Origin: Spongiibacter sp. IMCC21906
GTDB taxonomy: Bacteria; Pseudomonadota; Gammaproteobacteria; Pseudomonadales; Spongiibacteraceae
Direction: 5' to 3'
Length of the DNA stretch: 64,000 nucleotides
NCBI RefSeq assembly: GCF_001010805.1
Contig: NZ_CP011477.1
Span: 434,001 to 498,000, forward strand
This document shows positions 18,704 through 32,478 of the stretch, in pieces. Position 1 is the first letter of the stretch. Each line of letters opens with the position of its first letter. The notes beneath the pieces were generated by a model. It was not told where the DNA came from and did not search any database. It saw nothing but the letters and a program-made list of their open reading frames with translations. A program made the translations under genes and the position numbers.

Positions 18704-19348
18704 TCAAACAGGAAACGCTGCGCGGTCGGGAACGAGTAGCAGCAAATGACGAGCTTCGTCCAAACCTGGAACACTGAGCGAATGATAGCGCTTGACGATA
18801 AAGTGTTTTGGCAGCTGACTCAACTCCTGCTCTGGGTATAAGCCCTTCATAGCGTATAAATACCCCGATTCACGAAGCAGCGGGCCACAGGCCTGAGCCA
18901 TATCGCTCAGAGAGGAAAAAGCCCGGGACAGAATACCATCAAACTGCTGCGTTCTTTCAAAGTCTTCGATTCGCTGACAGTGAACACTCACATTTTTTAG
19001 ATCTAAACGCGCTTTGCTTTCAATTAAAAAGCGGGTTTTTTTACCGTTACTATCCAGCAATGCAAACTGACGCTGTGGAAAAACAATGGCCAAAGGAATA
19101 CCGGGTAAACCCGGTCCGGTGCCCACATCGAGAAAATCACTCCCCTCAATCAAATCAGTAATACTGAGACTGTCGAGCAAATGTTTAATCAGCATTTGCT
19201 CAGGGTCGCGAATGGCAGTGAGATTATAGGCCTTGTTCCACTTTTGCAGCAGCGCCAAATACGCTAGCAGTGCTTGTATTTGCGCGTCACTAAGAACGAG
19301 ATTCAGCGCAGTGCAACCAGCACGCAGGCGTGATTCCAGGGCATTCAC
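18704..19348 (-). CDS. rsmG: 16S rRNA (guanine527-N7)-methyltransferase
   Basis: SAM-dependent methyltransferase for G527 of 16S rRNA. The 214-residue protein has the SAM motif DVGTGPGLPGIPLAI (about 72-86) and LLDSNGKKTRF. It starts at GTG 19348, immediately after the mnmG TGA at 19349, so translation is probably coupled. Standard mnmG-rsmG pair. Confidence 0.97.
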   Translation of the reverse strand: MNALESRLRAGCTALNLVLSDAQIQALLAYLALLQKWNKAYNLTAIRDPEQMLIKHLLDSLSITDLIEGSDFLDVGTGPGLPGIPLAIVFPQRQFALLDSNGKKTRFLIESKARLDLKNVSVHCQRIEDFERTQQFDGILSRAFSSLSDMAQACGPLLRESGYLYAMKGLYPEQELSQLPKHFIVKRYHSLSVPGLDEARHLLLLVPDRAAFPV

Positions 19349-21241
19349 TCAGGCTGACTTCCTTTTTTCCAGCAAGCCGCGTTTTTTTAAATAAACCAGT
19401 AATAGCGAGACCGCAGCTGGAGTGACACCGGGAATTCGGGACGCCTGGGCCAGTGTTTGTGGCCGGGTATCCAATAGCTTTTGCTTCACTTCGTTGGAAA
19501 GCCCTTCGACAATGCTATAGTCAAAATCCACCGGCAAACAGGTATTCTCATGCCGGCGCAGACGCTCAATTTCGTCTTTTTGCCTGTCTATGTATCCCGC
19601 GTACTTCACACCAATCTCTAGCTGTTGAGCGACGCTTTCGTCCACTGCCTCAACACTGCCCAACAAATTTGCCAGATCGTGATAATCCAACTCAGGCCGC
19701 TTTAGCAATTCCAGTAAGTTGTATTCATGACTGAGAGGTTTACTGATTTTTTCTGAGAGTTTTTCTGCCGCTGGCGTACCGGGTTGAATCCAGCTGCTAG
19801 CAAGGCGTTGACGCTCTTTGGCGATTTGCTCGCGTTTTTCGCAAAACGCGGCCCAGCGCTCGTCGTCTACCAAGCCCAGTTCGCGGCCTTTTTCGGTTAA
19901 TCGCAGATCGGCATTATCTTCCCGAAGCAATAAGCGATATTCCGCCCGAGAAGTAAACATGCGATAGGGCTCTTTGGTACCCATGGTGATGAGGTCGTCC
20001 ACCAAGACACCAATGTAAGCTTCGTCCCGACGAGGACACCAAGGGTCTTTGCCTTGAGCCTGCAATGCTGCATTGGCACCGGCTAACAGCCCCTGTGCAG
20101 CCGCTTCTTCATAGCCCGTGGTGCCGTTAATTTGCCCTGCGAAAAATAGCCCGTGCAAAAATTTGGTTTCCAACGAGGATTTTAGGTCTCGTGGCTCAAA
20201 AAAATCATACTCAATGGCATAACCCGGTCGGGTCATATTGGCATTTTCGAAGCCCTTAATAGATCGCACCAGGCTCAATTGCACGTCAAAAGGCAGGCTG
20301 GTAGAGATGCCGTTGGGGTATAGCTCGTGGGTACCAATTCCCTCTGGCTCAATAAACACTTGATGGCTGTTTTTATCCGCAAAGCGATGCACTTTGTCTT
20401 CAATCGACGGGCAGTAGCGTGGGCCAATACCCTCAATCACCCCGGTATACATGGGTGAGCGATCTAAACCACCACGAATAATTTCATGAGTGCGCTCATT
20501 GGTGTGGGTAATCCAACAACAAACTTGCTGGGGATGTTGATTGCGGTTGCCAAGGTAGGACATAACCGGTTCTGGTGTGTCGCCCCACTGTTGCTCTAGA
20601 CCATCAAAATTAACGGTTTTGGCGTCTATTCGAGGTGGGGTACCGGTTTTTAGACGATCTACTCGAAACGGTAACTCGCGAAGGCGATCAGCCAAGGCAA
20701 TAGACGGTGGATCCCCTGCTCGACCACCACTGTGGTTATCAAGACCAATGTGGATTTTACCGCCCAAAAATGTTCCTGCTGTCAGGACGACGGTTTTGGC
20801 AAAAAATTTCAAGCCGATATTGGTAACCACGCCGCGAACAGTTTCACCCTCAACAATCAGGTCATCGACGGCTTGTTGAAAGATCGCTAAATTTTGCTGG
20901 TTTTCTAGCTGATTTCGCACGGCGGCTTTGTAAAGTACTCGATCTGCTTGTGCACGAGTTGCTCTTACAGCGGGGCCTTTACGGGCATTTAATACCCTGA
21001 ACTGGATGCCACCTAAGTCAGTAGCTTTAGCCATGGCACCACCCAAGGCATCAATTTCCTTCACCAAATGGCTTTTACCAATGCCACCTATTGCAGGATT
21101 ACAGGACATTTGCCCTAAGGTTTCTATGTTGTGGGTTAACAACAGCGTTGCACAGCCCATTCGAGCGGCCGCCAGTGCAGCCTCAGTACCGGCGTGACCA
21201 CCACCAATAACGATAACGTCGAAGCTTTGCGGATAATCCAC
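19349..21241 (-). CDS. mnmG: tRNA uridine-5-carboxymethylaminomethyl modification enzyme
   Basis: FAD-binding partner of MnmE that makes (c)mnm5U34 in tRNAs. The 630-residue protein has the FAD motif [17 protein letters not shown] (about 13-29), AVQVQFR-type [25 protein letters not shown] (about 78-100) with its conserved arginine-rich core, and a C-terminal helical domain ending in a lysine-rich tail. Separated from mnmE in this genome by a three-gene insertion. Its upstream gap contains DnaA boxes. Confidence 0.98.
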
Positions 21242-21299
21242 GATGCACCTGATTTTAGCTGGATGGAAAGAGGCGAAATTATACGGGTATCAGAGGCTG

Positions 21300-21565
21300 C
21301 TGCAATGAAATTGATGAAAATTTAATCAGTTAGTTTTAAGAATAAAGAAGTATATAAATATGTTGATATATATATGTTTTTTTATTCTTGTAGTAATTAT
21401 TACTGAGTGCTCTTTTTGTTGGTAACTTACCTAAATAATTGATTTATATAACAAAATTCATTGTATAACCCTGCGATTTATCCACATTTTTCTTGTTGGC
21501 AGGCTGGGATGTAACTGGGGATGAAATGTGGATAACTTTGCTGTTTTCTGTGGCTTGTGGGTAAG
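21300..21565. other. A+T-rich region with DnaA boxes upstream of mnmG (candidate origin element)
   Basis: The 371-bp gap between mnmG and the histidine kinase has a very A+T-rich block (about 21310-21470, with runs such as ATATATATATG). Three DnaA-box sequences follow within 90 bp: TTATCCACA at 21478-21486, TGTGGATAA at 21528-21536 (inverted, exact) and TGTGGGTAA at 21556-21564 (one mismatch to TTATNCACA allowed). An unwinding region beside clustered boxes next to mnmG is the layout of the E. coli origin. Whether this is the active origin or a DnaA titration site cannot be decided from the sequence alone. Confidence 0.55.
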
Positions 21566-21612
21566 CCACTCATTTTTAAGGGTTTGTATACATTCTGGAG
21601 AGAGCTTATGCC

Positions 21613-23502
21613 CTAGTTTTTCCCCAGGCAATTTAGCAATTTTTCTTTAAGTAAGGGCAATGAAACAGGTTTGCTTAAATAATCGTTCATGCCACATTGA
21701 AGTGCTCGGTCTTTATCTTCCTGAAGGGTATTGGCTGTTAAGGCAATAATAGGCAGTAATGCTAGATCGGGGTTTTGTCTTATTTTTTGGCAGGTTTCAA
21801 AACCATCCATGACGGGCATTTGCAAATCCATTAACACGACATCGGGCATATGATGCGCCAATACCGCTAGTGCTTCGCCGCCATGGTTTGCGGTAGTAAC
21901 TTGTATACCCCACTTTTCGAGTACACGACTCACTAACATTAGATTAACGGGATTATCCTCTACGACTAAGGCTGAAAGCCCCACTAAGCTATTATTGACG
22001 GTAGGTTTAGCGGTTTTTAGTGGTCTTTTTGTCCGGTATTCACAATGCCACTGCAACGTGAATGTGGAGCCACTCCCTACATTACTATTTAATTGCAGCG
22101 ATATATTCATTAGCTCGCAGAGCCGTTTTACTATCGCCAATCCTAAGCCGGAGCCACCGTAACGGCGTATAGTTGAGTTGTCTGCTTGGCGAAAGCTGTC
22201 GAAAATAACTTTTTGTTGATTTGGGCTAATGCCTATACCCGTGTCTTCGATACTTATTTCAACTAGCAGTTGTTTACTGGTTTTCTCTTTGCAAGCAATA
22301 CCCAGCGTAACCTGACCATTTTCAGTGAATTTAACAGCATTACTGCTTAAGTTAAGTAGTACTTGCCTAAGTCGAGTCTCATCCCCTAATAGCTGTATCT
22401 CGTTGAGTGTTGTCTCTATATTCAGCTTTAAACCAATACCTTTGCTATTGGCCTCATAGCGGAGGGCGTTAACAGTTTTTTCCAGAAGCTCATCAATATT
22501 AAAGAAGTCATTGATGATTTCGAGTTCTCCTTTTTCTATTTTAGAAAAATCGAGAATGTCATTTACAATCCCAAGCAGTAATTCGCTGGAATCGCGAGCT
22601 ACTGCCACATAGTGACTTTGTTCTTGGTTAAGTGACGTCTCTTCCAGCAGTTGCAACATACCCAGAGCGCCATTCATTGGTGTGCGGAGTTCGTGGGTCA
22701 TCGTTGCCAAAAATAAGCTTTTTGCCCGGTTGGCTTCTTCGGCCTCTGCTTTGGCCAGTTCTAACTGGCTAACATGGGTTTTGATAGCCAGCTGCTGTTC
22801 ATCGAGGCTGGCTGACATATTATTGATGTGTTTCTGTAGTTCACCGAGTTCACCCGATTGAACATTATTAATACGCACTCCAGTGCGACCGTTTGCTATG
22901 TCTCGGGTTGCGGCATTGATATCATCAAGAGGACTGGCGAGACGTCGACTAATTCGCCATGCCAAACCAATACTGATTATGATTACCAGTATGGCAATTG
23001 AACTGGAAACAAGAAAAATTTGCTGCTGAAGGCGTCTTAGCTCCAAATTAGATTGTTCTACGGCTACCGACCCCAGTAATTTGGACTCGCCGTTATTTAA
23101 TGTTTCGCCTGTTATGGCGTCTTCCATCAACACACTACGTTGAAAAATATTGGCAAACACCATCTCACTTTTTTCGTCGAAGCGCTTTTTATTCACTACC
23201 CGCCATTGCTGGTTACTATCTACTTGGCTAACCGTAATGGAGATAATGTCTTCGGATAAAACGGACGGTAGAAGATCTTTTATTTGTTGTTGATCACCGC
23301 TAATAAGAGCCAGCTCAGCAAGAGCTGCAATATTCTCTGCTACTCGTCGGCCTATCTCCCGCTGACTTTGTTCAGCATCGTTGAGTCGAGCAGCCAGGCT
23401 ATAGCTGAAAAGTGAAATAAACATTAACAGCATTGGTATCAGTCCAACCAACAGAATTTGTTGAAAGAGGCTGTGTTTTCGCAAGCTGTTTAGTAGTGGC
23501 AT
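21613..23502 (-). CDS. Hybrid sensor histidine kinase with receiver domain
   Basis: Inner-membrane two-component sensor, 629 residues. Membrane helices at about 15-37 and 160-182 enclose a periplasmic domain of about 120 residues. HAMP follows (183-235), then a short coiled coil, the phosphoacceptor H270 in MTHELRTPMNG, the ATPase domain (N box SNAVKF 387-392, DTGIG 420-424, GGSGLGL 449-455) and a receiver domain with D559 (VVLMDLQMPVMDG) and K611. No Hpt domain or output regulator is nearby, so phosphate must pass to an unlinked partner. Last gene of a three-gene operon, 3 bp after the binding-protein gene; the periplasmic domain could read that protein's ligand state (inference). Confidence 0.93.
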   Translation of the reverse strand: MPLLNSLRKHSLFQQILLVGLIPMLLMFISLFSYSLAARLNDAEQSQREIGRRVAENIAALAELALISGDQQQIKDLLPSVLSEDIISITVSQVDSNQQWRVVNKKRFDEKSEMVFANIFQRSVLMEDAITGETLNNGESKLLGSVAVEQSNLELRRLQQQIFLVSSSIAILVIIISIGLAWRISRRLASPLDDINAATRDIANGRTGVRINNVQSGELGELQKHINNMSASLDEQQLAIKTHVSQLELAKAEAEEANRAKSLFLATMTHELRTPMNGALGMLQLLEETSLNQEQSHYVAVARDSSELLLGIVNDILDFSKIEKGELEIINDFFNIDELLEKTVNALRYEANSKGIGLKLNIETTLNEIQLLGDETRLRQVLLNLSSNAVKFTENGQVTLGIACKEKTSKQLLVEISIEDTGIGISPNQQKVIFDSFRQADNSTIRRYGGSGLGLAIVKRLCELMNISLQLNSNVGSGSTFTLQWHCEYRTKRPLKTAKPTVNNSLVGLSALVVEDNPVNLMLVSRVLEKWGIQVTTANHGGEALAVLAHHMPDVVLMDLQMPVMDGFETCQKIRQNPDLALLPIIALTANTLQEDKDRALQCGMNDYLSKPVSLPLLKEKLLNCLGKN

Positions 23503-23505
23503 TGT

Positions 23506-24399
23506 CTACTGTTCCAACATTCGAGTTAGCAACGTTGCTTCACTAGGTAAAACAAGGCCTAGTGATCGTGCCACAGAATAATTCAGTTTGACCTCAAACT
23601 GGCTGGGAGGCCTGGGAGGAGGAATTTCTCCAGAGCGAATAAAATGATTGATCATGAGTATCACTTCATTGGTGTAATGATGTGTTTGAGATATCACCGA
23701 TGCCAGTGCGCCAGCATCAACAAAACCCTGGCTAGGTCCGATCAGAGGAGTTTGGTGTCGATAGCTACTTAATAAAATCGCCCGGATACTTTGGGGGTTA
23801 TATAAGTCTTGTTCTGGAGTCGCTAACAATACTTGGTTTTTTTGAATAATTTGATTAATTTTTCGAGTGCTGTCAGCACTCGCTATTTGCCTGGCATCTA
23901 AGTGAATTTCGTCTTGATTATTTATATTTTCTAGTAAGTGTTCATAGTAATAGGCATTTTTGTAGGCCATACCGATCTGAATACTTTGTCCGGAAAACAA
24001 AGTTTTTATTAATACCAGTTGCCGGGAAAGGGGTTGGTCAGAATATACGGCGGTGGTTTTATCCTGTGGAGTTGTTGTACTGAGAAAGTTGGCAGAATTA
24101 ACGTATAAGGCAAATTTAGCATCGTATGAATTACTTTGGGTGAGAGGCAATAAAGCATCGGAAACCACCAGTAGTATATTGCCTCGCTCTTCGGGTTTGG
24201 GAAGATTTCCTATATAGGTTCTGATATTTAAATGACTATCTTTTGCTATCTTTGTGGCAATAGCCTGCAATACCTGATTTTTAACAGGTAAAATTAAATC
24301 CACAGCAGCGCTACTCTCCTGTCCTTGAAGAGTAGTGCTAAAAAATATCTGCGACACAAAAAATACGAGTGCCGTTATTATCGATCGGTAAATTTTCAA
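23506..24399 (-). CDS. Periplasmic substrate-binding protein-like (ABC_sub_bind type)
   Basis: Exported protein of 297 residues with an N-terminal signal peptide (about 1-25, hydrophobic ITALVFFVSQIFF). The mature part resembles the two-lobed binding proteins of the TrpX/ABC_sub_bind group: an early VLQAIATKIAKD segment, and late TPLIGPSQGFVDAGALASVIS with LPSEATLL near the end. No ABC permease or ATPase gene is adjacent. Sandwiched between a TonB-dependent receptor and a sensor kinase, it may deliver ligand information to the kinase rather than to a transporter. The ligand is not evident. Confidence 0.65.
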   Translation of the reverse strand: MKIYRSIITALVFFVSQIFFSTTLQGQESSAAVDLILPVKNQVLQAIATKIAKDSHLNIRTYIGNLPKPEERGNILLVVSDALLPLTQSNSYDAKFALYVNSANFLSTTTPQDKTTAVYSDQPLSRQLVLIKTLFSGQSIQIGMAYKNAYYYEHLLENINNQDEIHLDARQIASADSTRKINQIIQKNQVLLATPEQDLYNPQSIRAILLSSYRHQTPLIGPSQGFVDAGALASVISQTHHYTNEVILMINHFIRSGEIPPPRPPSQFEVKLNYSVARSLGLVLPSEATLLTRMLEQ

Positions 24400-24443
24400 G
24401 AGACTAATCCTTAGTCCTCGTGCTTTTAAAATTTAACAATGCG

Positions 24444-26408
24444 TTAAAACTGGACACTAAGACTGAGCCACTGTCTTAGCTTATTATCATAAATATTGTT
24501 TGCCAATAATTCTGTATCGTTGTCATGCCGATACTGCGCTGTATAAGCTACTTCTATACGGCTGTGGCCAAGACGAAATCGTTTAGCTAACCGGATATCG
24601 CTACGCGAAAATTTGTTTAAATCAGTACCAATTGGTCGCGCGTAATACTGACTTATTGATAGTTGTAAGCTCGGTGTAAAGGAATAGGATAGCAAAGTAC
24701 TACCAGCGGATGTTGGGGTGAAACTGAGTTCTTGGTATACATCACTTTGGGCGTCGATGTAGGCGTAACTAAAATGGAATAACCATTTGTGATTGGGTCG
24801 GAAATCGACCTCTGTTTCTATCCCTCTTTGAGAAAGCTCATTCTCATTAGTGGGATCGAAGGAAAAAAGAGCGATCGATTTAGAGATTAGTCGATCAAGC
24901 TTATCGTCAAATAATTTTACATCCCATTGCAAATTGTAATGGCGAAAATTTCCGTAGTAACCAATCTCTTTTGATTTTATTCTTTCGGGTTTTAAGTCTG
25001 GATTACCTTCAGCGGTAAAATAAAATTTTGCAGTTGTGTTGTTATTTGTAGAGGGCCGAATATTTCGGCCAGTGTATTGCCATTTTGCAGAGGTTTCTAA
25101 AAGATCAGGTGTGCGTATTGCTTCCGAGTAAATTGCCCGAAAACTGTGATCGGGTGAAATATGGTAATGAAGTGTGATACGAGGTGAGAAATTTTTCCCA
25201 TTATTTTCTTCATATTCATAAGAACCTCCGCCATTAAGCGTTATTTTTTCTGTTATTTTTAACTCACCATTAAAAAAAAGTTGGTAACTATGATTATCAA
25301 TAGTTCCGTCGTAGTACGTTTCTGAACTTACCCGAGATTGTTTTAAATGGAATCCTGCAATTGTTTGAAATTTCTCGCTCCATATATAGCTATCTTGGAA
25401 GTCTATGTCTTTTCGATTGATGGCAATATCTTCATCTGCATCGGCAAAAACAAGCGGGTTTGGGTTATCGTTGAGATTAAATCCTGCAGGTGGGATAGCA
25501 ACAAGTAATTTTGTTTCTTGATCTTGACTGGAAAAATCAACACGTAAACTTTGGGTATGGAACGGAGAAAAATCCCAATCCAATTTTCCAGAAAAATAAT
25601 AATCTACATTGTCTGATCTCGGTATAATTGTATCTATATCGGAAGGGTCATCATTGGTCCAACCTTTCTTATAACCAAATCCAAAACTGCCATTTATGGA
25701 TTCTGAAAGCTGTTTTTCATAACGGCTATTAATCAGTTTTACACTTTTTGAATCTATTCGTTCGCCGCCATCTTTATTGCTATCAAAACCATTATCTTTA
25801 CGGCTGTTTACAGTTATTTTATAAAAGCCATCTGCATACTCTCCAGCGTGACTAATGCGATAATCTTCACTATCTTCTGTACCCCGTCGAGCGCTCATTA
25901 TTAGTTTTTCGCTATCGGCGGGATGTCGGGTAATTATATTAATGACGCCGAGAAAGGCATTGGCGCCGTAACTTGCAGTGGCGGGGCCGCGTACAACTTC
26001 GATACGTTGAATGTCTTCAATACTAATAGGGATATCAGTCCAGTCCACGGTGGCTAACCCGGCCTGATACACTGAGCGACCATCGATCAGCACCTGCATT
26101 CTTCTTGAATCCCGATAATTGCTCCCGTGGTAACTTACTACGTAATTGTAACCGTCTCTGGCACCTACGGAGGTGCCGGGGATTAATCTGAATAATTCGG
26201 GGATTTCTCGCAGGCCGGAGGCAATTATCATGTCTCTGTCGATAACCGATACACTGGCAGGCACTTCGGTTCTATTTTGTTTCAATCTTGCTGGTGTTAG
26301 TACGACTGGCAGGTTTTCGTCGCCGAGTAAACTGGCAGACGTATTATTAGTGGTAAGACCAATAGCAAAAAGCAGCACTAAACTGCCTGGAAGACGCGGG
26401 CAATGCAT
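24444..26408 (-). CDS. TonB-dependent outer-membrane receptor
   Basis: The 654-residue outer-membrane receptor has a signal peptide (to about residue 27, ending NTSASLLG), a plug domain (about 35-150; VSVIDRDMI, LIDGRSVYQ, RIEVVRGPATASYGANAFLGVINI) and a 22-strand-type barrel ending with aromatic residues (LSLSVQF). ATG 26408 is chosen over 26423 because AGGAGAGAGG lies just upstream of it. The plug resembles cobalamin/colicin-type receptors more than siderophore receptors, but substrate assignment is weak. First gene of the operon with the binding protein (44 bp) and kinase. Confidence 0.9.
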   Translation of the reverse strand: MHCPRLPGSLVLLFAIGLTTNNTSASLLGDENLPVVLTPARLKQNRTEVPASVSVIDRDMIIASGLREIPELFRLIPGTSVGARDGYNYVVSYHGSNYRDSRRMQVLIDGRSVYQAGLATVDWTDIPISIEDIQRIEVVRGPATASYGANAFLGVINIITRHPADSEKLIMSARRGTEDSEDYRISHAGEYADGFYKITVNSRKDNGFDSNKDGGERIDSKSVKLINSRYEKQLSESINGSFGFGYKKGWTNDDPSDIDTIIPRSDNVDYYFSGKLDWDFSPFHTQSLRVDFSSQDQETKLLVAIPPAGFNLNDNPNPLVFADADEDIAINRKDIDFQDSYIWSEKFQTIAGFHLKQSRVSSETYYDGTIDNHSYQLFFNGELKITEKITLNGGGSYEYEENNGKNFSPRITLHYHISPDHSFRAIYSEAIRTPDLLETSAKWQYTGRNIRPSTNNNTTAKFYFTAEGNPDLKPERIKSKEIGYYGNFRHYNLQWDVKLFDDKLDRLISKSIALFSFDPTNENELSQRGIETEVDFRPNHKWLFHFSYAYIDAQSDVYQELSFTPTSAGSTLLSYSFTPSLQLSISQYYARPIGTDLNKFSRSDIRLAKRFRLGHSRIEVAYTAQYRHDNDTELLANNIYDNKLRQWLSLSVQF

Positions 26409-26536
26409 CCTCTCTCCTTTCATTTTTATAAAGTGATATTTAGCAGTTTATCCTTTGTTGCTGGAATACGGCTAGGCCTGTCACTTATATTTAGTGGCGA
26501 TAGTGAGTCGTTGTTATTTTTATAGGGGGAGTCGCG

Positions 26537-27901
26537 TTATTTACCGATGCAGAAACTGGAAAATATTCGGCCGAGAAGGTCGTCGGCGCTGAATTCACCG
26601 GTAATTTCTGATAAGGCGTTTTGAGCGAGGCGAAGTTCTTCGGCCAGCAACTCACCAGCTTGATAATATTTGAGTTGTTCATCACTGGCTTGTAGATGTT
26701 GGCGGGCTTGCTCTAGCGCATCGAGATGGCGGCGACGGGCAATAAAATTAGAATCGCTTTCTTCAAAACCCATGCAATTCTTAAGGTGTTGACGAAGAGC
26801 ATCGATGCCCTCGCCTTGTTTGGCAGCAATTTTCAAGGATGGGATGCCGTCAATTTCTGCTGTGATGTCATAGCCCAAGTCACATTTATTAAATAATACG
26901 GTGAGCCTGCCATCTTGCGCAGCGTTATGAAACTCTTTAGGGATAGCGCGATGATCTTGCGTGGTGGTGATATCGACAACAAGCAAGATTCGGTCAGCTT
27001 TATCTATTTCTGACCAGGCGCGCCGAATTCCTTCTTGTTCTACAGGATCTGCACTGTCTCGCAGACCGGCGGTATCGATGATATGTAAGGGCATACCATC
27101 GATAAGAATATTCTCTCTGAGAACATCTCTTGTGGTACCGGCTATGTCGGTAACAATGGCAGATTCTCGTCCAGCCAAAGCATTAAGTAAACTGGATTTC
27201 CCAGCATTGGGTTGGCCGGCAATGACAACGGTCATTCCCTCTCGCAGTAAACTGCCTTGCTTTGCTGATTTAAAAACAGCTTCTAGTTCTTGGCGAATAA
27301 CAGAAAGATCAGTGGCGACTTTACCGTCACTAAGAAAATCGATTTCTTCTTCGGGGAAATCAATTGCAGCTTCTACATAAATACGCAGTACGGTGATGGC
27401 TTCTACCAAGGCGTAGATATGCCGACTGAATTCCCCTTCTAAGGATCGCATAGCCTGCTTGGCGGCTTGTTCAGAGGCGCTGTCGATAAGATCGGCAATC
27501 GCCTCAGCTTGGGCTAAATCTATTTTGTCGTTTAGAAAGGCTCGCTCTGAGAATTCACCTGGCCTTGCCATTCGGGCACCTGAGCGCAGTACTTCTCTAA
27601 GGAGTAGATCCATAATTACGGGGCCGCCGTGGCCTTGAAGTTCTAGTACATCTTCTCCAGTAAATGAGTTGGGGCCAGGAAAATACAGAGTAATTCCGCG
27701 ATCTATTAGCTCAGACGGTTTGTTTTCTAGCTGTCGGTAGAAACTAGCAAAGTGTGCATAACGGGGTTTGAGCGAAGGGAGGTTGAGCAGTTTATCGGCG
27801 ATATCAATACAAGCTGGGCCAGAAATACGCACGATACCGACACCGCCCTTTCCTGGGGCTGTTGCAATTGCAGCAATGGTGTCAGATATCGTGCCAGCCA
27901 T
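26537..27901 (-). CDS. mnmE: tRNA modification GTPase MnmE
   Basis: Partner of MnmG in U34 modification. The 454-residue protein has an N-terminal formyl-THF-binding domain ([22 protein letters not shown] at start), a G domain with GQPNAGKSS (G1, about 223-231), DTAG (G3) and NKCD (G4), and the C-terminal FCIGK that supplies the catalytic-centre cysteine. Lies 18 bp after yidC in the rpmH-rnpA-yidD-yidC-mnmE series. Confidence 0.98.
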
Positions 27902-27919
27902 AATGGCTTTACCAGTCCT

Positions 27920-29608
27920 TTACGTTTTCGCCAGCTCTTTTTTCTCAATACCTTTGGTAATGATGTATTGCTGAATAATTGAAAGGGTATTGTTTACAAC
28001 CCAGTACAACACCAGCCCTGCGGGGAAAAACAGGAAGAAGAAGGTGAATATCAATGGCAGCCACTGCATTACTTTGGCTTGCATTGGATCTGGTGGTGGC
28101 GGATTGAGCTTTTGCTGAATAAACATGGAAATCCCCATCACTACTGGCAGGATGAAATAGGGATCCATAGCAGATAAGTCATTAATCCACAGCATAAACG
28201 GGGCATGACGAAGCTCTATACTTTCCATCAATACCCAGTACAGAGAGATAAATACTGGCATCTGCACAATCATAGGTAAGCAGCCGCCAAGTGGGTTTAT
28301 CTTCTCTTTTTTGTATAGCTCCATCATCGCTTGGGATTGCTTTTGACGGTCGTCAGCGTAGCGCTCTTTAATATCCACAAGCTTGGGCTGTACTTTGCGC
28401 ATATTGGCCATAGAGGTAAAGGCCTTAGCATTCAACTGGAAGAATGCGGCTTTAATTAATACCGTAACGGCAATAATTGACCAGCCCCAATTACCTAGAA
28501 AGCCATGAATTTTGGTGAGTAACCAAAACAACGGTTGGGCTATCCACCACAGCCAGCCGTAATCGACTGTTAAATCTAAACCGGGTGCAATGCCTTCAAG
28601 GCGGTATTGGTCTTTAGGACCTGTATATAAAGACGCGCCTATTTTACCTTGCTGGCCAGCGGGGACAGATACTTCGGCACCGGTCATGCGGGCGATATTC
28701 ATACCCTGTTTAGTAACCACAGTGTTGAGCTGATTGGTTTGGTCCTGGGGTGGCACCCAAGCGCTCAGAAAATAATGTTGGCTTATACCAATCCAGCCAC
28801 CGTCAACACTTTCTTTTAGTGGCTTGTCCTTCATTTTAGGAAAAGCCAATTTGCTGTAGAGGTCCTCGTTATTGGCATAGGCGACGCCCATAAAGGGCTT
28901 CATAGAGAATAGCCCGCCTTTATCATCAACACTGGGGTCGACGCTGTTGTCTCTTTTTAATTGACCAAAAAACTTGGCTTGGAAGTCAGTGCTGCTGCCG
29001 TTATCGATCAGGTACTCAACGTTAATAAGGTATTTTCCACGCTCAAAGATAAAGCGTTTTACCAATCTCACTTCCTGGTTGTATTGATAATGGAGATCAA
29101 CGTTTAGTGTATCTTGGCCGTCTTGAAGTGAAAAACGAGTGGCGCTGGTTGAGAATGTGGGTCGACCATTTGCGGTATCGGTGGCGTTTTTACCGATTAA
29201 GCCACTTTGTGCAACATACGTTCTTTCCGCGTTGTTACTCAATACGACAAAGGGGTCATTAGATTCGAGTTTTGCGGTGAAATTAGGTAAAGCGCTGTAT
29301 ACGACATCGCCACCCTGTAAGGCAATTTCTATATTCAACACGTCGGTGGTGATTTTGATGCGGTCAGCATCAGTGACCACAGGGCCGTTTTCTTCTGGGA
29401 CCTCGGTTGATTCACTGGCAACGGGTATATCTATAGAAGAAGGTGAGTCATTTGTGCCAGTGGAGTCGCTTTCGCTCGGGCTTTGCTTTTTGAGCGCTGC
29501 ACTTTGTGTGGTTGAGTCAGGCAATTCAAAGTTGCGCCACTCTACCAGCAGCATGAATGACAGGGCGGCAATAGCGGCGATCAATAGATAGCGCTGAAAA
29601 TCAATCAT
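27920..29608 (-). CDS. yidC: Membrane protein insertase YidC
   Basis: Inserts and folds inner-membrane proteins with or without Sec. The 562-residue protein has an N-terminal membrane helix (FQRYLLIAAIAALSFMLLV), a large periplasmic domain (about 60-340) and the conserved five-helix core (about 345-550; NWGWSIIAVTVLIK, PLGGCLPMIVQMPVFISLYW, LYWVVNNTLSIIQQ). ATG 29608 overlaps the yidD stop by 8 bp and gives the usual N-terminus; the longer ORF start at 29683 lies wholly within yidD. Confidence 0.97.
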   Translation of the reverse strand: MIDFQRYLLIAAIAALSFMLLVEWRNFELPDSTTQSAALKKQSPSESDSTGTNDSPSSIDIPVASESTEVPEENGPVVTDADRIKITTDVLNIEIALQGGDVVYSALPNFTAKLESNDPFVVLSNNAERTYVAQSGLIGKNATDTANGRPTFSTSATRFSLQDGQDTLNVDLHYQYNQEVRLVKRFIFERGKYLINVEYLIDNGSSTDFQAKFFGQLKRDNSVDPSVDDKGGLFSMKPFMGVAYANNEDLYSKLAFPKMKDKPLKESVDGGWIGISQHYFLSAWVPPQDQTNQLNTVVTKQGMNIARMTGAEVSVPAGQQGKIGASLYTGPKDQYRLEGIAPGLDLTVDYGWLWWIAQPLFWLLTKIHGFLGNWGWSIIAVTVLIKAAFFQLNAKAFTSMANMRKVQPKLVDIKERYADDRQKQSQAMMELYKKEKINPLGGCLPMIVQMPVFISLYWVLMESIELRHAPFMLWINDLSAMDPYFILPVVMGISMFIQQKLNPPPPDPMQAKVMQWLPLIFTFFFLFFPAGLVLYWVVNNTLSIIQQYIITKGIEKKELAKT

Positions 29609-29864
29609 TGTGTGAGGGCCTAGAAAGTTGGAATTGTGGTTTTTTGCATTGGCAGGGCGGAACGGGGTCGTAACCGCCGTCATTTAAGGGGTGACAACGA
29701 GCTATGCGGCAAATACTCAGCCAGCTGCCACGGAGCGCACCGTATTCCTGGAGCGCTTCAACAGTATAGTGGGAACAACTGGGATAGAACCGACAGCGCC
29801 CAGCCATTACGGGGCTAAGAAGTAATTGATAGGCTTTAACCAGCAAAATTAGCAGCCGCCTCAT
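29601..29864 (-). CDS. yidD: Membrane protein insertion efficiency factor YidD
   Basis: Small membrane-associated protein of 87 residues assisting YidC. The family core is present: YQLLLSPVMAGRCRFYPSCSHYTVEAL with its conserved cysteines and RIARCHPLNDGGYDPVP (cut here into RIARCHPLNDGG and YDPVP). Lies 6 bp after rnpA and overlaps yidC by 8 bp. Confidence 0.96.
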   Translation of the reverse strand: MRRLLILLVKAYQLLLSPVMAGRCRFYPSCSHYTVEALQEYGALRGSWLSICRIARCHPLNDGGYDPVPPCQCKKPQFQLSRPSHND

Positions 29865-29870
29865 GGAGCT

Positions 29871-30254
29871 TTAGACCTCTTTTTTGTCGCGTCTAACCTG
29901 CTTTTCTGCGCGTCGTTGTAGTTGCGACCAAAGTTGGTTACAGATGTCGTGAAGCTGATGGTTATCCATTTTATCTAAGCCACGTCTTGCTAGCACGATT
30001 ACATCCAGACCGCTTAATTGGTTTTGCTGCAAACGAAAAGTTTCCCGCACAATACGCTTTATTCGATTACGCTGCACCGCTAAACGCACATTTTTCTTGG
30101 CGATAACCAATCCCAGACGAGGATGGTTGTTCTGGCTGGGTAGTGCAAGGAAGAGAATTTCGGGTGAAGAAACCTTCAGGCGAGACTGATCAAACACCGA
30201 TTGATAATCGCTGGATTGAAGAAGACGCAGTGTTTTACCAAATTGAAAACTCAC
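29871..30254 (-). CDS. rnpA: Ribonuclease P protein component
   Basis: Protein subunit of RNase P, which matures tRNA 5' ends. The RNR motif appears as VQRNRIKRIVRETFRL, with KTLRLLQSSDYQSVF at the start of the domain. From GTG 30254 (VSFQFGKTLRLL) the length is 127 residues, near the usual 115-125. The frame stays open to GTG 30320, inside rpmH, which would add 22 unconserved residues. Short starts in this gene are often ambiguous, so the longer form cannot be excluded. Confidence 0.93.
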   Translation of the reverse strand: MSFQFGKTLRLLQSSDYQSVFDQSRLKVSSPEILFLALPSQNNHPRLGLVIAKKNVRLAVQRNRIKRIVRETFRLQQNQLSGLDVIVLARRGLDKMDNHQLHDICNQLWSQLQRRAEKQVRRDKKEV

Positions 30255-30288
30255 TGCGCCGCCAGCGGAATCCCTATCGGTTTCTGGC

Positions 30289-30423
30289 TTATGCAGAAAG
30301 GCTAGCGCGGCCTTTTGCACGACGGCGGTTAATCAGTTTGCGGCCGTTTTTTGTTGCCATGCGCGCACGAAAACCGTGGGTACGGGCGCGTTTCAGGTTG
30401 CTTGGTTGAAATGTTCTTTTCAT
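30289..30423 (-). CDS. rpmH: 50S ribosomal protein L34
   Basis: This 44-residue, very basic protein begins [19 protein letters not shown] and ends [12 protein letters not shown], which is the complete bL34 sequence pattern. It is the first gene of the leftward rpmH-rnpA-yidD-yidC-mnmE cluster and diverges from dnaA. Confidence 0.98.
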
Positions 30424-30924
30424 GACTTAATCCGTCTATCTGTCTTTTGCACCCTAGTTTGGCGCATGGCCCAACACCGGTATGGCGCTGGACACAGTAA
30501 AATTGGATCGCGAATTTTAGTTGAGTAGCGCGTGAATAGCAACGGCTAAGCCCTTCCCTATTAAAAGAAAAGCTAAGGCTTAGCAGCTCTTAGTGTTATT
30601 TGTACTTTTAAACAAATTACGCACTAGATATCCACAGCTATCAAGCATAGTTATACACAGTGTGTGTTGTTTTGATTTTAGCGCTTGAAAGTTTTAAAAA
30701 AACCTGTATCGTTATGAATATAAAGAAGTTTTTATTTTTAAGCCAATAATAATATCTGTTAATTAATTGTGGATAAGTATTGGTTTCGAAGGTAGAATTC
30801 AGTCTTAATTACGTCTTTTTGGCTTAAATCGAATCCACGTTCCAAGCATTAAAATCAATAACAGCTCCCGCTATATATTTAGTGCCGGAGGCTGCATTAC
30901 ACCCCTGTTCATATGGAGAAAGCA
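30424..30924. other. rpmH–dnaA intergenic region, candidate replication origin and divergent promoters
   Basis: About 500 bp, strongly A+T-rich from 30600 to 30860. DnaA-box matches are TTATACACA at 30651-30659, TGTGGATAA at 30769-30777 and the near match ATATCCACA at 30628-30636. It is also the point where gene direction changes: everything to the left back to atp is transcribed leftward, and dnaA to gyrB runs rightward. In Pseudomonas the origin occupies this gap. The boxes could alternatively serve dnaA autoregulation. Confidence 0.6.
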
Positions 30925-32478
30925 GTGTCAGAAGCTACTTGGCAAAAGTGCGTGGCGCATTTGCGTGATGAGTTGCCCAGTCAACAGTTTAATACTTGGA
31001 TCAAGCCGTTACGCTTTGATGCTCAAGAAGGGCGTATTGATTTAATTGCGCCTAATCGTTTTGTGCGCGATTGGGTGAGTGACCGTTTTCTCGAAAGAAT
31101 TTTGGAGTTGGTGGCTGAATTGGCGCCGGCGGATAGTCGCCCAGAAGTTGCCTTGGGTGTTGGTCAGCGCAATTTGCAAACTGGAGCGGCAACGGTGGGC
31201 TCTATGCGGGTAGCCAGCACCAGCAGCTCTCCGCTTGAACCATCTGGAGTGTTGTCCTCTTCTTCTATAAATAATAAATTTTCTATTGGTTCTTCATCGT
31301 TACCTCAATCTGAAGATGATTCTCGGCAAGACTTTGTCTCTGACGCTGCTGCTAGCCCTGCAGCAGCTCAAGAGTCGCCAGAATTACCGGGAATGCAGCT
31401 GCGGGGAAATGGAAGCGGAGGACGGCGTTCGGTCGAAGTTGAAGGCCGCATTCGACATCAAAGCTCTTTAATGGAGGCTTATACCTTTGAAACCTTTGTC
31501 GAAGGTAAGTCTAACCAGTTAGCACGAGCTGCGGCTAGCCAGATTGCAGAAAACCCTGGTAAGGCCTATAACCCGCTCTTTTTGTATGGGGGGGTAGGTC
31601 TGGGTAAGACTCACTTGATGCACGCTGTCGGTAATGCTTTGTTGGCTCAAAACCCAAACGCTAAAGTGGTGTACTTGCATTCTGAGCGCTTTGTTGCCGA
31701 TATGGTTAAGGCTTTGCAGCTCAACGCGATCAATGAGTTCAAGCGCTATTATCGCTCGGTAGATGCTTTGCTTATTGATGATATTCAGTTTTTCTCAGGT
31801 AAAGAGCGTTCCCAAGAAGAATTTTTCCATACCTTTAATGCGCTGCTAGAAGGCGGCCAGCAAATGATTTTGACTTGTGATCGTTATCCCAAAGAAATTA
31901 AGGGCTTAGAAGAACGACTAAAGTCTCGGTTTGGTTGGGGCTTAACCGTCGCCGTTGAGCCGCCAGAACTTGAAACCCGGGTGGCTATTTTGCTTAAAAA
32001 GGCAGAACAAGAAAAAATCACCCTGCCCTCAGATGCGGCTTTTTTTATTGCCCAGCGGGTGCGCTCTAACGTAAGAGAGTTGGAAGGTGTGCTGAAGCGA
32101 GTGATTGCCAGCTCCCGATTTATGGCAAAGCCCATAGATGTTCCGTTGATAAAAGATTCCTTGAAAGATTTGCTTGCGCTACAAGATAAGCTGGTGAGTT
32201 TAGAGAATATTCAGCGCACGGCTGCAGAATATTACAAAATTAAGATTTCTGATTTAATGTCGAAACGCAGAAGTCGCTCTGTCGCGCGCCCACGGCAGGT
32301 AGCGATGGCGCTGTCAAAAGAGCTGACTAACCACAGTCTGCCTGAAATTGGCGAGAGTTTTGGTGGCAGAGACCATACTACAGTGCTGCATGCCTGCAAA
32401 AAAATTAAAGAGTTACGCGAATCTGATGGTGATATTCGAGAAGATTATCAAAATTTGATAAGACTGCTGACAACTTGA
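30925..32478 (+). CDS. dnaA: Chromosomal replication initiator DnaA
   Basis: Binds DnaA boxes and melts the origin. The 517-residue form starts at GTG 30925, giving an N-terminus of the usual type ([21 protein letters not shown]), and has GGAGAAA just upstream; ATG 30913 lacks a ribosome site. Domain I is about 1-85 and a low-complexity linker rich in S, P and A runs to about 185. The AAA+ domain has Walker [10 protein letters not shown] (about 220) and Walker B LLIDDIQF. Domain IV carries the signature [15 protein letters not shown]. The linker is somewhat long. Divergent from rpmH. Confidence 0.98.

Follow-up and report, generated by a model that had tools for sequence, protein, structure and literature searches.

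A TonB-dependent receptor, periplasmic binding protein and hybrid kinase encoded together in Spongiibacter: a candidate input branch for GacS/BarA-type kinases

The window analysed here is a stretch of 64,000 nucleotides from Spongiibacter sp. IMCC21906 (contig NZ_CP011477.1, positions 434,001 to 498,000 of the forward strand). Between mnmE and mnmG it carries three genes, the trio, which encode a TonB-dependent outer-membrane receptor, a periplasmic substrate-binding protein (SBP) and a hybrid histidine kinase. By sequence comparison the trio is an old and widespread module. We consider it fairly probable that it works as a three-layer sensor spanning the envelope, in which the TonB-gated receptor admits a ligand, the SBP captures it and the SBP gates the kinase. 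Many other Gammaproteobacteria encode the same receptor and SBP with a GacS/BarA-like kinase, and for this reason we favour the view that the pair forms a conserved input branch of GacS/BarA-type kinases. The interest of the trio rests on this link, which is not visible from the window alone.

The SBP was searched for in 293 genomes from the order, that of the window included, and matched in 99 of them; these include every one of the 12 genus genomes listed. Apart from that of the window, 98 genomes had matches, and 97 of these (G052 was left out) supplied 100 loci, whose neighbours were classed by profiles from the first loci; these profiles are general detectors of receptors and kinases, and the tallies describe the neighbourhood rather than the orthology of the partners. 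Receptor, SBP and kinase genes were adjacent and in this exact order at 75 loci, 70 assigned by script and five (L063, L071, L072, L073, and L128) by hand, where overlapping domain edges had given the wrong sign. A kinase was nearby at 88 loci and a receptor at 92. The receptor lay beyond the kinase of an SBP-kinase pair at six loci and between SBP and kinase at one (L084), and two loci (L043 at a contig edge) held an SBP with neither partner. In the 18 relatives tabulated, the distance between SBP and kinase genes always fell between −53 and +5 nt. The initial annotation had proposed a survey for the three-gene order, and the possibility it raised, that the genes are always separate elsewhere, was contradicted by these counts.

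At the class level, 59 loci were obtained from 81 SBP matches outside the own genome in 369 gammaproteobacterial genomes. Both neighbours were strictly present at 43, and a kinase stood within 1.5 kb downstream of the SBP at 53. The flanks of the trio varied by lineage and included der with xseA, gpsA, FBPase, mnmE, and others. Flanking genes that differ in this way could suit a functionally unconnected cluster near the replication origin, a product of chance or of history alone, but the trio stays together while its flanks change, at both the order and the class level, and such an accident is extremely unlikely. Consecutive matches to receptor, SBP and kinase also occurred in L149, a taxonomic far outlier assigned to Candidatus Brocadiaceae, a planctomycete.

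With three PF02653-type proteins as references, no such permease was found near any of the 100 order loci, and ABC ATPase-like genes alone lay about 5 kb away at two. Among the 59 class loci, ATPase-like genes stood alone near two and together with a permease near one, L233, which has the weakest SBP match (25 bits) and is an ordinary ABC operon. Since receptor, SBP and kinase recur together without a transporter, coupling to sensing is a better reading of the trio than import. This agreed with the initial annotation, which had proposed uptake coupled to sensing, had noted that the operon contains no inner-membrane transporter (none was present among the genes alongside the trio in the window), and had named a linked transporter as evidence to the contrary. 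Its term surface sensing did not carry over, as nothing in the analysis speaks for sensing of contact.

The trio could instead serve uptake with feedback, in which the receptor and SBP supply an inner-membrane permease encoded elsewhere and the kinase does no more than tune expression. In other contexts PF04392 proteins, which the SBP resembles, are known to serve as subunits of ABC importers. In L233 an SBP is indeed accompanied by a PF02653 permease and an ABC ATPase, and 10 of the 100 order loci keep receptor and SBP without a nearby kinase (L096 lies at a contig edge, and L049 was reclassified by hand). However, the permease is absent near all the order loci, the genome has only two PF02653 matches, next to each other and 330 kb distant from the trio, and the kinase is about as constant a partner as the receptor. 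We regard this explanation as unlikely.

Some observations count against a sensing trio. Besides the 10 loci without a nearby kinase, six order loci had an SBP-kinase pair with no receptor nearby (L107 at a contig edge), and transporters of other types could escape the three permease references. Distance coupling was computed in 12 genus genomes, with L035 dropped for its split receptor; between SBP and kinase sensor it gave a partial r of 0.18, within the controls (−0.28 to 0.38), whereas the SBP reached 0.66 with the kinase core and 0.54 with the receptor. The test is weak, because even for the two kinase halves compared with each other it yields 0.13. Finally, while the genomic linkage of the trio is observed directly, we infer the entry and capture of the ligand and the contact between SBP and kinase, and the sensing reading depends on such reasoning for ligand, contact and output alike.

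The variant loci were of several kinds. Family f26 (L099, L108, L110, L111, L117, L124, L126, and L127) has receptor and SBP without kinase, and in L099 the pair is followed by an alpha/beta hydrolase gene on the opposite strand. Similar SBP-kinase pairs (299 + 656 aa in both) occurred in L130 and L132 with no receptor nearby; a TraI_2 gene close to the pair in L130 suggested a mobile element.

Component proteins and a candidate signalling route

Two Pfam families matched the receptor above cut-off, the TonB barrel at 95.2 bits and the plug at 70.4 bits, and an N-terminal STN signalling domain was not among its Pfam matches to E 1. A signal peptide and a TonB-box-like stretch, LPVVLTPARL, were recognized by eye, and the latter recurred in slightly varied form in the receptors of most genus relatives. 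In L035, a metagenome-assembled Zhongshania, the receptor (L035:10598-12581) is split into two overlapping frames, by either a frameshift or an assembly error.

The SBP scored below threshold against ABC_sub_bind (PF04392; 20.0 bits, cut-off 25.9; 20.7 bits in the genome search) and was the sole PF04392 match of the genome in a search to E 1. Its AlphaFold2 model (mean pLDDT 91.4, pTM 0.83) showed a full two-lobe type-I periplasmic binding fold. The closest solved structure was CD0873 (Z 21.6, rmsd 3.5), followed by a Vibrio cholerae protein (Z 20.8, rmsd 5.3) and an L-Trp-bound pneumococcal protein (Z 19.5, rmsd 5.1), and the structural alignments to PF04392 structures spanned 253–257 residues. 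At the sequence level, only the second part of the SBP profile aligned with these three chains (E 5.7e-8, 8.8e-8, and 0.013, respectively). The predicted complete fold, together with the conserved motifs that the protein also carries, favours ligand binding. L-Trp is bound in one of the solved relatives, and no more than a first guess at the ligand would therefore be an aromatic compound or a related small molecule. In L099 a prephenate dehydratase gene precedes the receptor-SBP pair, and similar-sized genes stand there in relatives of L099; this could hint at an aromatic ligand and is probably accidental. The classified flanking genes of the trio in relatives were mostly unrelated housekeeping genes and thus gave no clue to the ligand. 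Only two plasmid records matched the SBP, NZ_CP012641.2 and NZ_CP103372.1 (Massilia), with 25–28% identity over 58–76%.

The same fold bears on a YfiR-like role, in which the SBP, ligand-free or responsive to the envelope, would hold the kinase off until freed by the receptor. YfiR holds off YfiN in this manner, with the outer-membrane protein YfiB as releaser. Among 30 DUF4154 loci (L240–L269), a kinase-profile match lay within the 1.5-kb flanks at 29 and a receptor as well at 17; given this shared layout, receptor, periplasmic mediator and kinase look like a general design. However, 10 of the 29 kinase-profile matches were weak (36–55 bits), gene direction was left out of the count, and the SBP keeps the complete fold and motifs of a ligand binder. 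A YfiR-like mode of action is therefore quite improbable for the trio.

The kinase has hydrophobic helices at residues 16–34 and 162–180, with the periplasmic sensor between them, and a core of HAMP, HisKA, HATPase_c and Response_reg that is shared with GacS/BarA; Pfam found neither an Hpt domain nor a DNA-binding domain. Its top NCBIfam model was BarA (413.4 bits, under the BarA cut-off). The sensor matched sCache_4 at 13.3 bits, below the cut-off of 22.1, and five of the 18 members of kinase alignment A2 matched this domain at E 0.01. A Cache-like sensor fold is only plausible, because the sensor model (pLDDT 83.7) had a single PDB match under E 0.001, a WalK model. Class-level trio kinases were often about 900 aa long, and the two examined (L187 and L205) had a C-terminal Hpt domain. 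Apparent SBP-kinase fusions in L187, L205, and L225 were rejected as over-extended kinase frames: the kinase match starts 236–310 residues into the long frame, and in L187 the SBP lies in a different reading frame from it.

Taken together as a sensor, the three proteins would act in sequence. The TonB-dependent receptor, judged by its family, would take a specific ligand through the outer membrane, and the soluble PF04392-like SBP, with its predicted fold, would capture it in the periplasm. Liganded or empty, the SBP may then contact the membrane-anchored sensor and switch the kinase, as in the LuxP-LuxQ and TorT-TorS precedents. Phosphate would pass to the receiver of the kinase and, because no Hpt was found in the window kinase, on to an Hpt in trans. 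Eight Hpt matches were found in the genome, and those of the GacS-like kinase described below and of a 122-aa frame are candidates for this step. The initial annotation had stated that the kinase has no local output protein, which was right within the window and not for the module, since a REC-GerE response regulator stood just before the trio in L086 and inside it in L087. Short receiver-type matches were found at comparable places in further order loci.

Relation to GacS/BarA kinases

The kinase-sensor profile had one other match in the genome of the window, a GacS-like kinase of about 880 aa. In five f26 genomes and in G239, where the SBP has no adjoining kinase, the profile had one match each, a long kinase flanked by relatives of relA, rlmD, cysM, acpS, and recO. 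In a sample of 40 genomes, picked mostly for long trio kinases, the best match was the trio kinase beside the SBP in 39 (the exception was G181), and in 31 it was the sole match.

The position of the trio pointed to the same kinases. By tblastn, at least one of cysM, rlmD, relA, acpS, pdxJ, and recO lay beside 33 of the 59 class-level trios; such gac-locus genes lay beside none of the 100 order-level trios, that of the window being at mnmE-mnmG instead. L195 and L204 have cysM on one side of the trio and acpS-pdxJ-recO on the other, and in L144, a public metagenome contig, rlmD and cysM precede the trio and pdxJ follows it. Of the 369 class genomes, 77 contained the SBP and 97 the sCache_4 domain, which is the BarA-type sensor; 66 had both, 11 the SBP only, 31 sCache_4 only, and 261 neither (Fisher p 4e-37, in a test that ignores shared ancestry). 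The sCache_4 match lay at most 500 bases directly after an SBP match in 62 of 111 cases, corresponding to 62 of the 82 SBP matches.

Kinase phylogenies were reconstructed at three levels: a FastTree of 107 kinases with 46 of the 86 order kinases, a quick IQ-TREE analysis of the cores of 73 kinases with 14 of these 46 and without TC_L231 and TorS, and a careful tree with an approximately unbiased (AU) test on 34 of the 73 rows. FastTree grouped nine lone GacS/BarA kinases, that of E. coli included, with the trio kinases L190, L194, and L195 (0.989). The quick tree recovered this group with the addition of trio kinase L220 (SH-aLRT 96), which FastTree placed elsewhere. GACS_L279 paired with trio kinase L193 in all three trees (0.996, 95, and 98/96), while the inner order of the GacS/BarA group was largely unresolved in the 34-row tree. 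The trio kinase in a number of other bacteria thus appears to be GacS/BarA itself. That of the window, by contrast, is placed by the trees as no GacS but a close relative outside the GacS/BarA clade with the same partners, because window-type kinases stayed apart from the GacS/BarA group (SH-aLRT 97 in the quick tree, 98/97 in the 34-row tree). Their own unity was weak in FastTree (0.43), and four X kinases (L280–L282 and L284) joined them in the quick tree and not in FastTree. The long sensor-matching kinases L282:3563-6711 and L284:5771-8890 follow receptor- and SBP-sized genes (703 + 322 aa and 712 + 314 aa), possibly partners of another kind.

The receptor and SBP may have been the ancestral input apparatus of GacS/BarA in Gammaproteobacteria. 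Where kept, the SBP would present a TonB-imported ligand; elsewhere, as in E. coli BarA and the GacS of the window genome, the partners would have been lost or would act in trans. We hold this view tentatively, at somewhat below an even chance. Lineages with receptor and SBP and a distant GacS may use the pair in trans.

Several results speak against the GacS/BarA link. The GacS-like kinase of the window genome adjoins relatives of cysM, relA, recO, and era, and E. coli barA adjoins rlmD and relA, both with no receptor or SBP neighbours. In the class genomes G419 and G532, which have the SBP without an adjoining kinase, the sensor matches were weak and away from the gac locus. The AU test against the nine lone GacS/BarA kinases as one clade was borderline (p 0.041) and was set after the trees had been inspected. 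The window kinase is not among the 111 sCache_4 matches, and it differs from GacS/BarA in its lack of an Hpt, its scores below the BarA and sCache_4 cut-offs and its place outside the clade, apart from which its whole window-type group stands.

The GacS ligand was called unknown in a review of 2020 (PMC7695008) and a study of 2025 (PMC12148439), in the passages concerned. Acetate and formate have been reported as signals for BarA of E. coli, and BarA/GacS sensor types with differing pockets have been proposed (PMC8639471, in part). What these three sources say on the point places the ligand site in the sensor domain itself, unlike the scheme considered here. By word count, TonB is absent from PMC7695008 and PMC8639471 and occurs twice in PMC12148439, in a BtuB passage. 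Neither the trio nor a receptor or SBP partner of GacS was described in the titles and abstract openings that searches of open-licence PMC papers listed, which is not proof of absence. An Acinetobacter paper with GacS, a TonB-dependent receptor and a substrate-binding protein (PMC12455638) was set aside as unrelated, since the part concerned deals with an ABC cluster for iron within a deleted region. The trio appears to exemplify a widespread way of arranging known parts, of which we found no description. If receptor and SBP are indeed tied to GacS/BarA, they would offer a soluble, purifiable protein in which to seek the Gac ligand.

Locus and age of the arrangement

The gene calls placed the trio adjacent and co-directional on the minus strand, with 44 nt between receptor and SBP and 3 nt between SBP and kinase (Table 1). 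The receptor frame was called as 24444-26423; the start at 26408 was preferred because AGGAGAG stands before its ATG.

Table 1. Features of the trio and its surroundings (positions in the window).
Feature	Position	Strand	Description
TonB-dependent outer-membrane receptor	24444..26408	-	654 aa from ATG at 26408; plug and barrel
Periplasmic binding protein (SBP), PF04392-like	23506..24399	-	297 aa; hydrophobic N-terminal signal
Hybrid histidine kinase	21613..23502	-	629 aa; HAMP, HisKA, HATPase_c, receiver
mnmE	26537-27901	-	flanks the trio on the receptor side
mnmG	19349-21241	-	flanks the trio on the kinase side
mnmE-receptor gap	26409..26536	-	short; presumed start of the operon mRNA
Kinase-mnmG gap	21242..21612	n/a	A+T-rich; three DnaA boxes, two of them exact and one with one mismatch

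The initial annotation had described three A+T-rich genes inserted between mnmE and mnmG. The base composition was real (GC 0.38–0.44, flanks mostly 0.46–0.54), and the word inserted was correct for the position and not for a recent event, as the same place is occupied in the 12 listed genus genomes and in a genome from a second family. In each of the other 11 genus genomes the trio lies between mnmE and mnmG, and so it does in L042 of the second family; in L043, of the same family as L042, the SBP directly follows mnmE before the contig ends. Zhongshania, Spongiibacter, and Neomelitea are the named relatives with this arrangement, and in L037 two further genes, one for an SBF-family transporter and one of the FMN_red family, separate mnmE from the receptor. 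Across 13 loci the mean GC content at third codon positions (GC3) of the trio tracked that of six flanking genes (r 0.98), lying below it in every case by 0.02–0.15. Because GC3 follows the flanks in this way, the low GC content is no proof of import, and a recent horizontal insertion was rejected on synteny and GC3 together.

No promoter was identified in the mnmE-receptor gap. Over 19000-31500 no RNA family reached its cut-off (best 23.2 bits vs 81), promoter-like sites were rarer than in shuffles (8 vs 13.9), and terminator-like sites were somewhat commoner (9 vs 5.1). The gap between kinase and mnmG has a GC content of 33%, and the corresponding gap held 2–6 DnaA boxes (at most one mismatch) in 13 of 13 loci (the window and L031–L042), a count for the gap without a chance control; over the whole window DnaA boxes were not above chance (8 vs 6.4). 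The cumulative GC skew had its minimum near 20–22 kb of the window, and the coding-strand GC3 skew was negative for the trio and also, mostly less strongly, for mnmG. The dnaA-rpmH gap likewise contains DnaA boxes. The kinase-mnmG gap is a possible candidate replication origin, towards which the trio would be transcribed, and lies outside the sensing module.

Comparison with known systems

GacS/BarA kinases resemble the window kinase in that BarA is its best model, in that its sensor profile finds the GacS-like kinase of the genome, and in that the trio stands at the gacS locus in other lineages. The YfiR/DUF4154 modules likewise have a receptor, a small periplasmic protein and a signalling membrane protein side by side. 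Their periplasmic protein is a different one, however, and the window genome had no DUF4154 match. FecA-type receptors, and SusC/D with hybrid two-component systems in Bacteroides, are known cases of an outer-membrane TonB receptor linked to regulation; the window receptor differs from them by its lack of an STN domain and the window kinase by its lack of a DNA-binding domain in Pfam. The ABC importers of the TrpXYZ type (PF04392 with PF02653) share the family and fold of the SBP, whereas the trio has no adjoining permease or ATPase and its SBP falls under the PF04392 cut-off.

The closest parallels combine a binding protein with a hybrid kinase. In E. coli, TorT/TorS senses trimethylamine N-oxide, and the binding-protein gene torT is found beside the hybrid-kinase gene torS; a TonB receptor is absent among the genes shown at torTS, and the window kinase is below the TorS cut-off (371.4 vs 676.5). 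In LuxP/LuxQ, which senses autoinducer-2 in Vibrio, a type-I periplasmic binding protein is the partner of a hybrid kinase equipped with a receiver but lacking an Hpt. LuxP ranked 10 in the Foldseek list of the SBP, and the linkage expected of LuxPQ-like sensors was seen in the kinase near 88 of the 100 order loci. The window kinase, however, scored far under the LuxQ cut-off (344.8 vs 1200, with a model that covers the kinase half), and LuxPQ is not known to include an outer-membrane receptor. If the trio indeed works as a sensor, it would add an outer-membrane gate to the known scheme of a binding protein plus a kinase.

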